Part shown: piece by piece, positions 22,809-29,482 of the stretch
Position numbering within the stretch: the first letter of the stretch is position 1
Layout of the letters: each line of letters opens with the position of its first letter
Assembly: GCF_005884405.1 (NCBI RefSeq)
Contig: NZ_VCAO01000006.1
Span: 1 to 64,000, forward strand
Direction of reading: 5' to 3'
DNA from: Qipengyuania marisflavi
Lineage (GTDB): Bacteria > Pseudomonadota > Alphaproteobacteria > Sphingomonadales > Sphingomonadaceae
DNA: 64,000 nt
Notes under the pieces: model-generated
The model's input: the letters and a program-made list of their open reading frames with translations, nothing else
What the model was told of the DNA's origin: nothing
Databases searched by the model: none
Position numbers and translations under genes: made by a program

Positions 22809-23513
22809 ATGGTTCCCCTTTCGTTCGCTGGTGAAGAATGGCTCCTGACAGAGGGCCGTGCGCTGTATTGGCCGCGCGAGCGCGCTTTGCTGGTGGCTGA
22901 TCTGCATCTGGAAAAGGGCAGCTTTTTCGCCCGGCACGGCCAGATGATCCCGCCCTATGACAGCCGCGAGACGCTGGAGCGCGTGGCGCTGGCCATTCGC
23001 GAAACGGGCGCGCGCCGGGTCATCACGCTGGGCGACAATTTTCACGATTCGCAGGGCTCTGCCCGGTTGGAGCCGCACGCCTGCGGAATGCTGGAGGCGC
23101 TGACCAAGGCAGTCGACTGGGTATGGATCACCGGCAATCACGATCCAGATATGGAGGCGCGCTGCGGCGGCACGCTGGCCGAGGAGTTGGAACTGTCGGG
23201 CGTAATCCTGCGCCACCGTGCGCAGGTGGGCGAGCTGCGTCCCGAACTGTCCGGCCATTACCATCCGCGCCTGCAGGTTACGCTGCGGCAGCGGCGCATC
23301 CGTCGCCCATGCGCAGTGGTCAGCGCTCAGGAGGGGCCGGACGGCGCGCCATCGGGCCGCATGATCCTGCCCGCATTTGGCGCCTATACCGGCGGTATGG
23401 ACGCCGCCGACCCGGCGATCCTCAAGGCCATGCAACCCGCTGACCAGATCGACGCGGTCCTGCCTGCCGGCGGGCGTCTGGCGACCTTTCCGCTGTGGCG
23501 GCGCGCGGCCTGA
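22809..23513 (+). CDS. pdeM: PdeM-type metallophosphoesterase (ligase-associated DNA repair)
   Basis: A 234-residue calcineurin-like phosphoesterase with the metal motifs DLHLEKG (near residue 31), GDNFHD, GNHDPD and GHYHP in the right order. The sequence fits the family called ligase-associated DNA damage response endonuclease PdeM, which usually sits with an ATP-dependent DNA ligase and a helicase; those partners are not in this window. It is divergent from hemF with a 45-bp gap. Confidence 0.85.
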
Positions 23514-23612
23514 TCGCCACGTATTTCAAGTAATCTGCGGTGCAGCTGCAACAAACCCTTCCGAATCCCCGCGTCCATGCCTACATAGCGCGCCATCAAC
23601 CTCGGCAATTTC

Positions 23613-23625
23613 AGGAGATCGATCC
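23613..23625 (+). promoter_or_regulatory. Shine-Dalgarno that fixes the unusual AUA start of infC
   Basis: AGGAG at 23613-23617 is followed by eight bases and then ATA 23626-23628. No AUG, GUG or UUG is in frame at this distance; the nearest in-frame ATG is 24 bases further on, too far for this box. Translation of infC therefore most likely starts at AUA. Confidence 0.75.
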
Positions 23626-24168
23626 ATAGCCCGTCCACCCCGGCGCAGTATGCAGCCCCCCGTCAAGAGCGGCCCGCGCTTTGACACCATGATTCAAGTC
23701 CCCAAGGTCCGCGTGATTGATCACGAAGGCGAGAACCTTGGCGTGATGATCACCCGCGAAGCGATGGAACAGGCGAACGAGCTTGGCCTGAACCTCGTCG
23801 AAGTGTCCCCCACCGCGGACCCGCCGGTGTGCAAATATCTCGATGTCGGCAAATATCGCTACGAGGCGCAGAAGAAGGCGAACCTCGCGCGTAAGACCCA
23901 AAAAACGCAAGACATCAAAGAGATCAAGATGCGTCCCAACATCGACACGCACGATTATGACGTGAAGATGCGGAACGTGAACAAGTTCATCGACGAAGGC
24001 GACAAGGTGAAAGTCACCCTGCGTTTCCGTGGCCGAGAAATGGCGCATCAGGAGCTGGGCTTGAACCTGCTCCGCCGCGTGCAGGACGATGTCGCCGAAA
24101 CCGCCAAGGTCGAAGCGTTTCCCCGGCTGGAAGGCCGGCAGATGGTCATGGTTCTCGCACCCAAATAG
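23626..24168 (+). CDS. infC: Translation initiation factor IF-3 (AUA start)
   Basis: 180 codons, the same length as E. coli IF-3. The N-domain reads [26 protein letters not shown] and [18 protein letters not shown]; the C-domain has [51 protein letters not shown]-3 keeps start-codon fidelity on the 30S subunit and in E. coli represses its own mRNA, which starts with AUU; an AUA start fits the same autoregulation. rpmI and rplT do not follow; a terminator does. Confidence 0.95.
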
Positions 24169-25547: not shown

Positions 25548-25645
25548 GGCTCGTTTCGCGCCGTTCATCGCACCTATTCCCGCACTAGCAATTGGCGTTT
25601 GCTGCCGCGCTTGCTAGCAGGCGGGAACGGGGGATGAGGGGTACG

Positions 25646-27133
25646 ATGACCGCAGGACGGATTGGGTTTATTGTCGGCTTAGCCGCGCTGCTGCTGACAA
25701 TTGTGCTGCCGCTCCCGGCGGGGATGGAGCGCGGAGCGTTTGTGACGGCCGGGCTGGTCGTGCTGATGGCCGCCTGGTGGATGACCGAGGCGATCCCGCT
25801 GACCGCAACCGCGCTGATGCCGTTTCTGGTCCTGCCATTTGCCGGGGTGATGTCCGCCAAGGAAACCGCCGGCGCGTATTATTCGGATATTCTGTTCCTG
25901 CTGCTGGGCGGCGCGTTCATTGCGCTGGCGATTGAGAGGACCGGACTGCACCGCCGTCTGGCGCTGGGCATCTTGCGGCTGACGGGCGAGAATGTCGGCC
26001 CGCGCGGATTGCTGCTGGCTTTTATGGCGAGTGCCGCGATCCTGTCGATGCTGATCTCCAATACCTCGACCGCGCTGATCATGATGCCGATGGCGTTGGC
26101 GGTACTGGCTGGCGGCGAGTCCTCAAGCAGCCAGGCGGTAGGACAAACAGAAACGCCCTCAAGCAGCGAAGCGGTAGGACAACCAGACACACCCCCCACA
26201 CTACACAACAAAAATGGACTTTCCGGCGCGCTGCCGATGGGGATTGCCTTTGCTGCCAGCATCGGCGGTCTGGGCACATTGGTCGGCAGCCCGACCAATG
26301 CCATCGCGGTGGGCCTGCTGGACGAGCTGGCGGGGGTTCGCATCAGCTTTGCCCAGTGGGCAATGTACGGCATCCCCATCGTCGTGTTGGGCATCCCGCT
26401 GGCCGCGTGGATCATCGCGCGGGTGCAGCGGGTGACGGAGCATCCCTTCAACGTCGCCTCCGCCCGCGCCGCCATCGACACCCATTCGGCATGGTCGACC
26501 GCTGAGAAGCGGCTGGTCCCCATTGTCGCGGTGACATTCCTGCTGTGGATGGGTCAGATCTGGCTCAAGCCGCTGCTGCCCGATGGCTCGCTGACCGATG
26601 GCACCATTGCCATTATCGCCAGCCTGGCCTTGTTCCTGCTGCCCGACGGATCGGGCCGCCCGCTGCTGGTGTGGGAAGAGGCTGACCGCGCGCCGTGGGG
26701 CGTGATCATGATGTTTGGCGGCGGACTGGCGCTGGCGGCGGGCATGGGCAAAAGCGGGCTGGCGACATGGCTGGGGCAGGAATTGCTGCCGCTGCAATAT
26801 GCGCCGCTGTTACTGGTCGCGCTGGCGATTGTGGCCATGGTCATCGTGATCACCGAATTCGCCAGCAATGTGGCCACCGCCAGTGCGTTCATACCGATCG
26901 TTGCCAGCCTGGTGGTCGCGCTGGGTGTGGACCCGCTGCTGCTGGCCATGCCTGCCGCGCTGGCGGCCAGCTGGGGCTTTATGCTGCCTGCCGGGACCGG
27001 CCCCAATGCCATCGCCTGGGCCACCGGACGCATCCGTATCGGCAGCATGGTGCGCGCAGGGCTGATGCTGGATATTGTCGGCGTGGTGCTGATTGTCGGC
27101 ACAGTGTGGGCAGTGCAGACGCTTGTGACTTGA
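25646..27133 (+). CDS. SLC13/DASS-family anion:Na+ symporter, with an in-frame repeat insertion
   Basis: About 495 residues, polytopic. The two SNT-type motifs are present: SNTSTALIMMPMALAVLAG in the first half and EFASNVATASAFIPI in the second, matching the divalent-anion (dicarboxylate/sulfate) symporter fold. Between the first helical half and the GLSGALPMGIAFAASIGGLG segment is a low-complexity insert (about residues 158-190, SSSSQAVGQTET then PSSSEAVGQPDT) coded by two hairpin-repeat units. ATG 25646 has GAGGGG upstream; ATG 25634 is an alternative. Confidence 0.9.
   Translation: MTAGRIGFIVGLAALLLTIVLPLPAGMERGAFVTAGLVVLMAAWWMTEAIPLTATALMPFLVLPFAGVMSAKETAGAYYSDILFLLLGGAFIALAIERTGLHRRLALGILRLTGENVGPRGLLLAFMASAAILSMLISNTSTALIMMPMALAVLAGGESSSSQAVGQTETPSSSEAVGQPDTPPTLHNKNGLSGALPMGIAFAASIGGLGTLVGSPTNAIAVGLLDELAGVRISFAQWAMYGIPIVVLGIPLAAWIIARVQRVTEHPFNVASARAAIDTHSAWSTAEKRLVPIVAVTFLLWMGQIWLKPLLPDGSLTDGTIAIIASLALFLLPDGSGRPLLVWEEADRAPWGVIMMFGGGLALAAGMGKSGLATWLGQELLPLQYAPLLLVALAIVAMVIVITEFASNVATASAFIPIVASLVVALGVDPLLLAMPAALAASWGFMLPAGTGPNAIAWATGRIRIGSMVRAGLMLDIVGVVLIVGTVWAVQTLVT
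26119..26190 (+). repeat. Two in-frame units of the dispersed hairpin repeat, 36-bp period
   Basis: Unit one: GTCCT (26119-26123), 16-base loop, AGGAC (26140-26144). Unit two: GCCCT (26155-26159), 16-base loop CAAGCAGCGAAGCGGT, AGGAC (26176-26180). The loop nearly equals that of the 9.9-kb array, while the stem bases differ but still pair in unit one. The period is 36 rather than 35, so each unit adds exactly 12 codons to the permease. Confidence 0.85.
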
Positions 27134-27186
27134 AAAGGCGCAGCACGCTCCGTAATCGGTCTGACGTAGCGGCAATGGCGGAGATG

Positions 27187-27273
27187 CGTTCCTGAGGAGG
27201 TTAGGAACGGGTGCCCCGGAACCTCACCAGCTCCCGCCTTCCTGGGAGCGTTTGCACAGGAAGGAATTCGCCC
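27187..27273 (+). promoter_or_regulatory. Structured 5' leader with pseudoknot potential upstream of the PLP enzyme
   Basis: Hairpin one: CGTTCCT (27187-27193) with AGGAACG (27203-27209), 9-base loop. GAGGTT in its loop (27197-27202) pairs with AACCTC at 27220-27225, a pseudoknot. Hairpin two: GCTCCC (27230-27235) with GGGAGC (27244-27249). Its loop CCTTCCT (27237-27243) is complementary to AGGAAGG at 27258-27264, which is the ribosome-binding site of the gene at 27274. The design suits a translational riboswitch, but it does not match a SAM-II or SAH consensus I can recall. Confidence 0.55.
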
Positions 27274-28587
27274 ATGAGCGATTCGCCCATCGACCGCGCC
27301 GCACCGCGCAAGGCACCCAAACCCGAAGTCACCAAGATCGCCGGACGCGAACTGAAGCCCGCCACGCTGATGATGGGTCACGGCTATGATCCCACGCTGT
27401 CCGAAGGCAGCCTGAAGCCGCCGATCTTCCTGACCAGCACCTTCGCGTTCGAAAGCGCAGCGGCAGGCAAGCATCATTTCGAAGGCATCACCGGCAAACG
27501 TCCGGGCGGCGCCGACGGACTGGTCTATTCACGCTTCAACGGCCCCAATCAGGAAATCCTGGAAGACCGGCTGGGCATCTGGGACGGCGCCGAGGATGCG
27601 CTGTCCTTCTCCAGCGGCATGACCGCGATCTGCGTGCTGATGCTGGCTTATGCCGCTCAGGGCGATGTGATTGTCCATTCCGGCCCGCTCTATGCCGCAT
27701 CCGAAGGCTTCGTTGCCAAGGTGCTGAGCAAGTTCGGCGTCACCTATATCGATTTCCCCGCCGGGGCCACGCGCGAGCAGCTGGACGCGGTGATGGACCG
27801 CGCGAAGACACAGGCGGACGAGCAGGGCGGCAAGGTCTGCATGGTGTATCTGGAAAGCCCCGGCAATCCGACCAATGCGCTGGTCGATGTCGAGGCGGTG
27901 CGCGATGCGCGCAATGCCGCGTTTGGCACAGACGGCCCGCCGATCGCCATCGACAACACCTTCCTGGGCCCCTTGTGGCAGCGGCCGCTTGATCAGGGCG
28001 CGGATATTGTGGTGTATTCGCTGACCAAATATGTCGGCGGTCATTCCGATCTGGTCGCCGGATCGATTGCCGGCGCGAAGAAGTGGATGAACCCGGTGCG
28101 CGCGCTGCGCAACACGATGGGCGGCATCTGTGATCCCAACACCGCATGGATGCTGCTGCGCAGTCTGGAAACCGTCGAATTGCGGATGCAGCGCGCGGGC
28201 GAGAATGCCGCCAAGGTGTGTGAATTCCTGGCAAGCCACCCCAAGGTCGAGGGGCTGGGTTATCTCGGCATGATCAAGGATGCGCGCCAGCAGGATATCT
28301 ACGACCGCCATTGTCAGGGAGCGGGTTCAACCTTCTCGCTGCTGCTCAAGGGCGGCGAGGCGGAATGCTTTGCCTTCCTCGACGCGCTCAAGATCGCCAA
28401 GCTGGCGGTAAGCCTGGGCGGGACCGAGACGCTGGCCAGCCATCCGGCCAGCATGACGCATCTGTCGGTTGCCGAAGGCCGCCGTGCGGAGCTGGGAATT
28501 GGTGACAATCTGGTGCGGATCAGCATTGGCATCGAAGACCCGGATGATCTGATCGCCGACTTTGAACAGGCGCTCGAACAGGTCTGA
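27274..28587 (+). CDS. Cystathionine gamma-synthase-family PLP enzyme (transsulfuration/methionine metabolism)
   Basis: A 437-residue fold-type I enzyme. VYSRFNGPNQEILEDRL, the glycine-rich SFSSGMTAICVLMLA, the PLP-binding IAIDNTFLGPLWQRPLDQGAD and the Schiff-base Lys in SLTKYVGGHSDL near residue 252 are all present, as is the end SLGGTETLASHPASMTH. The family includes cystathionine gamma-synthase, O-acylhomoserine sulfhydrylase and methionine gamma-lyase; sequence alone does not decide. The ATG at 27274 follows an AGGAAGG box embedded in the leader RNA. Confidence 0.9.
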   Translation: MSDSPIDRAAPRKAPKPEVTKIAGRELKPATLMMGHGYDPTLSEGSLKPPIFLTSTFAFESAAAGKHHFEGITGKRPGGADGLVYSRFNGPNQEILEDRLGIWDGAEDALSFSSGMTAICVLMLAYAAQGDVIVHSGPLYAASEGFVAKVLSKFGVTYIDFPAGATREQLDAVMDRAKTQADEQGGKVCMVYLESPGNPTNALVDVEAVRDARNAAFGTDGPPIAIDNTFLGPLWQRPLDQGADIVVYSLTKYVGGHSDLVAGSIAGAKKWMNPVRALRNTMGGICDPNTAWMLLRSLETVELRMQRAGENAAKVCEFLASHPKVEGLGYLGMIKDARQQDIYDRHCQGAGSTFSLLLKGGEAECFAFLDALKIAKLAVSLGGTETLASHPASMTHLSVAEGRRAELGIGDNLVRISIGIEDPDDLIADFEQALEQV

Positions 28588-28594
28588 TCACCCG

Positions 28595-29482
28595 GTGAAA
28601 ATTGGTTTCCTCGCCTGCGCCGCGACGCTGCCCGATGGCGGGGCGGAGCGGCGCGGCGATGCCTATGAGCATGACCTCGAAGTGGCGGCATTGCGTCCGC
28701 CCTTCGCGGCGCATGGCATGGAAGTGGTGGAGCTGGACTGGCGCAGCCCGATCGAGAGTTTCGACGGGCTTGCGCTGGTCCTGCTCGGCACCGCATGGGA
28801 TTATCAGGACCACCCCGAGGAGTTTCTCGCGCGGCTTGAGGCGCTGGCGGCGCGCGGGATTGCCGTGTGCAATCCGCCCGAAATCGTCCGCTGGAATGGT
28901 GACAAGAAGTATTTGCAGGATTTGTCCGCACGCGGCGCAGTGACTGTGCCCACGCTGTGGCATGATGATGTCGGGCGCGGCGAAATTGCAGCGGCTCTGG
29001 CACATTTCGGCACCGACCGGGTCGTGGTCAAACGGCAGGTGGGCGCGGGCGGGCTGGGCCAGCACAGTTTCCGCGTGGATGATTTGCCCGCCGCGGACTG
29101 GCGGATGGGCCATGCGGCGATGATCCAGCCCTTTCTGCCTGCCGTGGTTGAAGAAGGCGAGTTCACCTTTGTCTTTATCGATGGGGAATTTTCACACGGC
29201 GTGCATAAGCAGGCCGCGCCGGGCGAATACCGCATCCAGTCACTCTATGGCGGTTGGGAGAGCGATTATACGCCGGCGCCCGCGGATCTGGCGCGGGCGC
29301 AGGCAGTGGTTGCCGCGCTGCCATTTGATAATCCGCTCTATTGCCGCATCGATATGGCGCGTCTGCCCGGCGGCGAACTCGCAGTTATGGAGGCGGAGAT
29401 GATCGAACCTTACCTATACCCGGAACAGGGTCCGGGGATGGGCGCAGCACTGGCAGCGGTGATTGCGCGGCGGCTGGCATAG
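28595..29482 (+). CDS. ATP-grasp domain protein (glutathione-synthetase/RimK-like fold)
   Basis: About 295 residues. LVLLGTAWDYQDHPEEF at the start, NPPEIVRWNGDKKYLQDLS, VVVKRQVGAGGLGQHSF (ATP-grasp lysine and glycine loop) and VMEAEMIEPYLYPEQGPG at the end are shared with a family that includes the cycloserine-pathway ligase DcsG. The reaction is not known here; it would join an amine to an activated carboxylate. The start is GTG 28595, eight bases after the upstream stop. Confidence 0.75.
   Translation: MKIGFLACAATLPDGGAERRGDAYEHDLEVAALRPPFAAHGMEVVELDWRSPIESFDGLALVLLGTAWDYQDHPEEFLARLEALAARGIAVCNPPEIVRWNGDKKYLQDLSARGAVTVPTLWHDDVGRGEIAAALAHFGTDRVVVKRQVGAGGLGQHSFRVDDLPAADWRMGHAAMIQPFLPAVVEEGEFTFVFIDGEFSHGVHKQAAPGEYRIQSLYGGWESDYTPAPADLARAQAVVAALPFDNPLYCRIDMARLPGGELAVMEAEMIEPYLYPEQGPGMGAALAAVIARRLA

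Follow-up and report, generated by a model that had tools for sequence, protein, structure and literature searches.

Gene content and promoter region of the locus

The window (the whole 64,000-nt stretch of Qipengyuania marisflavi DNA analyzed here) contains a gene for a PLP-dependent enzyme of Cys/Met metabolism, preceded by a leader with two hairpins and a candidate promoter. The coordinates of these features are given in Table 1. The enzyme matched the NF005455 'cystathionine gamma-synthase family' model with 659 bits (cut-off, 504 bits). Its nearest solved structures were 5ijg (446 bits) and 7swh, followed by methionine gamma-lyases, and most of its PDB relatives are annotated as the latter. 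Both results agree with the earlier note on this DNA, made from the sequence without database searches, which had assigned the downstream gene to the PLP enzymes of the methionine pathway.

Table 1. Features of the enzyme gene and its leader (positions in the window)
Feature	Coordinates	Strand	Remarks
Candidate promoter	27130-27158	+	TTGAAA 27130-27135, 17-nt spacer, TAATCG 27153-27158
Predicted helix P0, 5' strand	27176-27181	+	27181-27214, 27180-27215, bulged 27179, 27178-27216, 27177-27217, 27176-27218
Predicted internal loop, 5' side	27182-27186	+	Consensus AGANG
P1 stem, 5' strand	27187-27193	+	Covariation
Loop 1	27194-27202	+	Consensus GCGGAGGUU, here GAGGAGGUU; near-invariant in relatives
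P1 stem, 3' strand	27203-27209	+	Covariation
Predicted internal loop, 3' side	27210-27213	+	Consensus GGNG; sub-clade variants CCUGG, GCCAGCG, GAGCG
Predicted helix P0, 3' strand	27214-27218	+	Pair counts, covariation
Linker	27219-27229	+	Sequence and length both variable; contains 27220-27225
P2 hairpin	27230-27249	+	Stem 27230-27235/27244-27249; loop 2, GCCUUCCU, at 27236-27243
RBS AGGAAGG	27258-27264	+	Complementary to loop 2 at 27237-27243
PLP-dependent Cys/Met-metabolism enzyme, cystathionine gamma-synthase family (PRK07049/NF005455), 437 aa	27274-28587	+	

A gene for a DASS-type sodium-coupled anion symporter (25592-27133) precedes the enzyme gene and was a conserved neighbor in 61 of 80 related loci, an arrangement that may point to a sulfur or organic-anion pathway common to both genes. 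The next open reading frame (28562-29482), a conserved neighbor in 33 of the 80 loci, weakly matched the D-cycloserine synthetase DcsG (ATP-grasp; 110 bits against a cut-off of 360 bits). Elsewhere in the window, the ATG candidates of the gene for translation initiation factor IF-3 (23377-24168) lie late in frame, and this gene may use a rare start codon. The E. coli IF-3 gene has a rare start codon.

A promoter consensus scan found none in the window itself; from the candidate boxes in Table 1, transcription would be expected to start near 27165. In relatives, the leader is immediately preceded by the palindrome GTTNCANNTGNAAC and TTGNNN/TATAAT-like boxes, and the window copy of the palindrome is degenerate (27126-27137). 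GTTNCANNTGNAAC was present in the promoter region of 45 of 87 leader-bearing loci vs. 14 of 40 loci without the leader, suggesting that a transcription factor probably controls the enzyme gene too. The palindrome overlaps the promoter of the gene in leader-bearing and leader-less orthologs alike. A regulon of the palindrome was rejected: the GTTNCANNTGNAAC sites found in six genomes had no consistent neighboring pathway. Two candidate upstream open reading frames were rejected: for an AUG in GGAGAUGCG, only 65 of 122 leaders have U as the middle base, and most relatives have no start codon at the position of a GTG at 27211.

Comparative analysis of hairpins P1 and P2

The predicted fold of the single sequence was no more stable than those of shuffled sequences (z = -0.53), so a single sequence cannot decide and relatives are needed. 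Orthologs were gathered from 200 family genomes and a genome collection. The leaders of Erythrobacter, Qipengyuania, Citromicrobium, Aurantiacibacter and related genera were aligned at the start codon and have the consensus pattern NGGAGANGCG-UUCCU-GCGGAGGUU-AGGAA-CGGGNGCC, a variable linker, GCUCCY-GCCUUCCU-GGGAGC, then AGGAAGGA and the start codon.

The earlier note had described a candidate riboswitch-type leader at 27187-27273 with four pairings, two of them the stems of P1 and P2, and had suggested searching orthologous leaders for compensatory changes. The sequence contains all four pairings exactly as described, both hairpins covary in the relatives, and compensatory changes are present in P1 and P2. 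Support for these hairpins was assessed with RNAalifold and pair counts on the aligned relatives. Changes on both sides occurred in 8 of the 13 pairs, 98.6% of cells were paired and none of 500 shuffles was as good; the covariation signal collapsed when the partners were slid against each other. The six pairs of P2 were formed in 93-100% of 122 non-redundant leaders.

For a tree-aware covariation test, a tree was built from the proteins of 111 loci. On this tree, P2 pair 4 changed 19 times, and 10.7 of 12 independent row pairs agreed and none was opposite (median p about 0.001). Five further pairs changed in the same direction or not at all, with none opposite and with events too few for significance of any single pair. 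Wobble pairs in P1 and P2 were G-U or U-G in 39 cases and A-C or C-A in one, an excess indicating that the functional molecule is RNA of the + strand, neither DNA nor the opposite strand. Comparison of the relatives thus shows that selection acts on P1 and P2, as predicted helices, at the RNA level and on the mRNA strand.

Two other structures were rejected as the selected structure, with no covariation in either: a long duplex of P1 with P2, like that of a folded REPIN, and pairing of the P1 5' arm with the RBS, which is the predicted fold of the single sequence. In eight leaders the distance from P2 to the RBS is longer by about 40 nucleotides; the RBS is altered in these longer leaders (for example to AGGGAGG or AGGAGGG) and, by eye, the pairing with loop 2 is retained.

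Basal helix and internal loop

The strongest column pair besides those of P1 and P2 linked the nucleotide that precedes AGANG to the one that follows GGNG. This pair (columns 19 and 55) occurred as five pair types among 50 (GC 32, CG 7, and AU, UA and UG). None of 500 shuffles reached the score of the helix, P0, to which it belongs, yet only 74% of cells were paired in a fixed register, partly because sub-clades take another register (seen by eye). AGANG lies opposite GGNG between P0 and P1 and belongs to the most strongly conserved segments of the RNA, with A in 106, G in 114, A in 114, a variable base, and G in 113 of the 122 leaders. The comparison shows that a predicted basal helix, P0, closes a conserved, purine-rich internal loop below P1. 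Neither P0 with its internal loop nor the complementarity of loops 1 and 2 described below was part of the model in the earlier note.

Complementarity of the loops and the ribosome-binding site

Loop 2 was identical in 115 of the 122 leaders. Its CCTTCCT segment had been proposed to pair with the RBS, and this pairing, which could hide the RBS, was retained by most of the relatives: at least six contiguous pairs were possible in 102 of 122 leaders vs. about 18 in shuffles, and fewer than six in the other 20. The exact sequence AGGAAGG was found in 67 of the 122 leaders vs. none of 40 orthologs without the leader. Covariation between loop 2 and the RBS was weak, with one pair showing double changes, and some match of an anti-Shine-Dalgarno-like loop 2 to any RBS is expected.

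Loop 2 is also complementary to loop 1. GGAGGU of loop 1 (27196-27201) and GCCUUC of loop 2 (27236-27241) were complementary in 299 of 300 cells. These pairs show so little variation that covariation is no test of them. The loop 1:loop 2 and loop 2:RBS pairings are mutually exclusive because both use 27237-27241. The duplex energies, from which tertiary terms are excluded, were -11.1 kcal/mol for loop 2 with the RBS vs. -7.3 kcal/mol for loop 1 with loop 2.

Variants of loop 2 were mostly GCCUCCCU, a U-to-C change found in several genera that turns a G-U pair with loop 1 into G-C and lowers the energy of that duplex from -7.3 to -10.2 kcal/mol. Loop 2:RBS complementarity was weakened in most leaders with GCCUCCCU, and in one (L213) the RBS was altered to match. 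One pair between loops 1 and 2 was broken in L208, whose loop 2 is GCCUGCCU, and a new complement, GCAGGC, lies 3 nt past P2. The behavior of these variants indicates that the loops mostly remain complementary to each other even when complementarity to the RBS is gone.

Distribution and database searches

About 100 Erythrobacteraceae-type genomes have kept the leader, each with a single copy that precedes the same cystathionine-gamma-synthase-family gene. A covariance model gave 96 strong matches (44-99 bits) among 299 family genomes, one per genome, with the next best match at 29 bits. No strong match was found outside the family in 289 genomes drawn from Alphaproteobacteria, and a second covariance model that included P0 gave the same picture across the order and the phylum. 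Every match whose downstream sequence was read was followed by the same enzyme gene, and the position directly upstream of this one orthologous gene was fixed. Neither the leader nor an ancestor of the motif was found before 40 more distant Sphingomonadaceae orthologs. The loop 1 pattern occurred once in the genome of Q. marisflavi, plus one copy with a mismatch. Occurrence of the motif before other genes or in other classes was rejected, as the weak matches that were read (20-37 bits) were REP-type hairpin pairs.

The leader had no Rfam 15 match at the gathering threshold and, at E up to 10 in 27100-27330, only chance miRNA and thermometer matches; six divergent relatives gave no Rfam match at E up to 1. 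Neither the genome of Q. marisflavi nor eight other genomes of its genus contained SAM_alpha. The statement in the earlier note that the sequence does not fit SAM-II or SAH, for which it had named Rfam as the check, is consistent with these searches. No description of the leader was found in the literature within the main text of open papers, and the searchable structured-RNA surveys do not mention it. On these grounds the predicted leader RNA is a new family of riboswitch-like design that is missing from Rfam 15. Strong covariation and one clear target gene make tests of ligand binding and switching direct.

Resemblance to REPIN-like repeats

The weak model matches read in other Sphingomonadaceae were inverted hairpin pairs such as CTCCTGCGNARGCAGGAG ... 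CTCCTGCYTNCGCAGGAG. These REPIN-like repeats reach about 96 single copies per genome, and a reversed control pattern was almost nil. Inverted pairs of this kind were seen at four numbered loci and at other loci of related Sphingomonadaceae.

The leader and a REPIN both contain two hairpins in opposite orientation with complementary loops and the same spacing. Measured from start to start, the hairpins of complete repeat pairs lie 41-53 nt apart and those of the leader about 43 nt, in identical order and orientation. P1 resembles the repeat and P2 its reverse complement: relative to the repeat GCTCCTGCGAAGGCAGGAGC, the GCTCC form of P1 has one substitution and a change of C to TT, and 17 of 20 positions of P2 agree with the reverse complement. 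In a test made after the likeness was noticed, random hairpins of like size and composition were as good at frequencies of 2e-5 (GCTCC form) to 4e-4 (GTTCC form) for P1 and 5e-5 to 8e-5 for P2. The genome of Q. marisflavi contained no copy of the repeat and no RAYT-type transposase (Y1_Tnp), which was present in 2 of 11 genomes examined. Because the test was post hoc and the genome has neither the repeat nor a RAYT, the repeat origin is likely but not proven.

P1 and P2 probably descend from a REPIN-like inverted repeat pair that entered the region between the promoter and the gene in the clade's ancestor. Unlike the REPIN-like repeats, with their many copies per genome, the leader is single-copy and fixed upstream of one gene, and it has altered, conserved loops, the extra helix P0 and a co-adapted RBS. 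None of the repeat pairs read showed P0, the internal loop or the matching RBS, which would have been added later. If the repeat origin holds, the leader would be an example in which the emergence of a regulatory RNA from a mobile bacterial palindrome can be traced, with complementary loops supplied ready-made by the inverted repeat. The origins of riboswitch-like RNAs are rarely visible.

Models of regulation

We favor the view that this is a conserved, structured 5' leader RNA that would control translation of the PRK07049 enzyme gene by means of two competing states, and we give this reading a probability of about 0.6. In the off state, loop 2 would act as an anti-RBS and pair with the RBS. 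In the on state, loops 1 and 2 would form kissing hairpins, leaving the RBS free. The equilibrium could be shifted by Mg2+, by a protein or a second RNA, or by a metabolite that binds at loop 1 or the internal loop. We infer that both pairings form, which of them is the on state, and that something regulates the balance between them. Counting against a two-state switch are the single target gene, the weak loop 2:RBS covariation and the duplex energies, which favor loop 2:RBS.

A metabolite riboswitch for a sulfur-amino-acid compound is a tentative possibility. The putative pocket would consist of the P0/P1 internal loop and loop 1, both of which contain conserved unpaired nucleotides, and the RBS-occluding helix would serve as expression platform. 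The target gene belongs to the Cys/Met superfamily, and the candidate ligands are methionine, homocysteine, cystathionine, SAM, SAH or the substrate of the enzyme. However, the motif occurs with one gene family in one clade only, other sulfur genes are without it, and it matches neither SAM, SAH nor other Rfam classes. Its restriction to one gene family and one clade, together with the REPIN-like ancestry, makes functions without a ligand possible.

Such a function could be that of a structured leader that does not switch, a domesticated REPIN whose role is to shield the mRNA or to hold translation at a constant level. The ancestry of P1 and P2 and the several leaders that kept their loops after losing loop 2:RBS complementarity are consistent with this explanation, which we nonetheless consider rather unlikely, as the conserved internal loop, P0 and the AGGAAGG RBS go beyond the repeat pairs read and the loops are more strictly conserved than the stems. 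It seems doubtful that the leader is a new class of metabolite-sensing riboswitch in which the kissing hairpins are an exapted REPIN that gained an aptamer-like internal loop and a matching RBS.

It is quite improbable that the leader acts as a thermosensor or is bound by an RNA-binding protein or an RNA acting in trans. GGAGGU in loop 1 is a perfect Shine-Dalgarno-like sequence (-10.7 kcal/mol with the anti-SD), and loops that expose GGA or CCUUCC typically serve as docking sites, but csrA is missing from the genome, by which control by CsrA through the GGA loop was rejected. Thermometer families gave no match, and the invariant loops and internal loop exceed what a thermosensor needs. Very little speaks for the four-helix model of the earlier note, in which GAGGTT of loop 1 (27197-27202) pairs with AACCTC of the linker (27220-27225): the window has six perfect pairs here (-8.1 kcal/mol), but at least six pairs were possible in 24 of 122 leaders vs. 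25.2 expected from shuffled linkers, which refutes the helix as a conserved feature and marks it as accidental, while the other three (P1, P2 and loop 2:RBS) are supported by the relatives.

Comparison with known leader RNAs

SAM-II, SAH and SAM-SAH are short proteobacterial leaders of methionine-pathway genes, and SAM-II and SAM-SAH hide the RBS. The leader differs from these (SAM-II is SAM_alpha, RF00521) in that the window has no match to them at gathering or permissive thresholds. The nearest RNA in working principle is guanidine-II (mini-ykkC), a pair of linked hairpins whose conserved loops are proposed to kiss and thereby free the Shine-Dalgarno sequence (PMC9300104). The two are set apart by loops and architecture, as well as by the lack of an Rfam match. 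Guanidine-II has short ACGR loops, two kissing G-C pairs and a linker that is the anti-SD, whereas the leader has heterologous loops of 8-9 nt, GCGGAGGUU and GCCUUCCU, that lack ACGR and could form up to six pairs, with loop 2 as the anti-SD, and has the predicted P0 and internal loop.

The metXZ element of beta-proteobacteria is a predicted RNA element in the leader of methionine genes with a pseudoknot or alternative pairing (Leyn 2014, PMC4239095). It contains terminator hairpins and acts on metX/metZ (PMC4239095), whereas no terminator was found in the leader described here. The same survey of methionine regulons lists Sphingomonadales with a SahR/SamR-type regulon only (PMC4239095).
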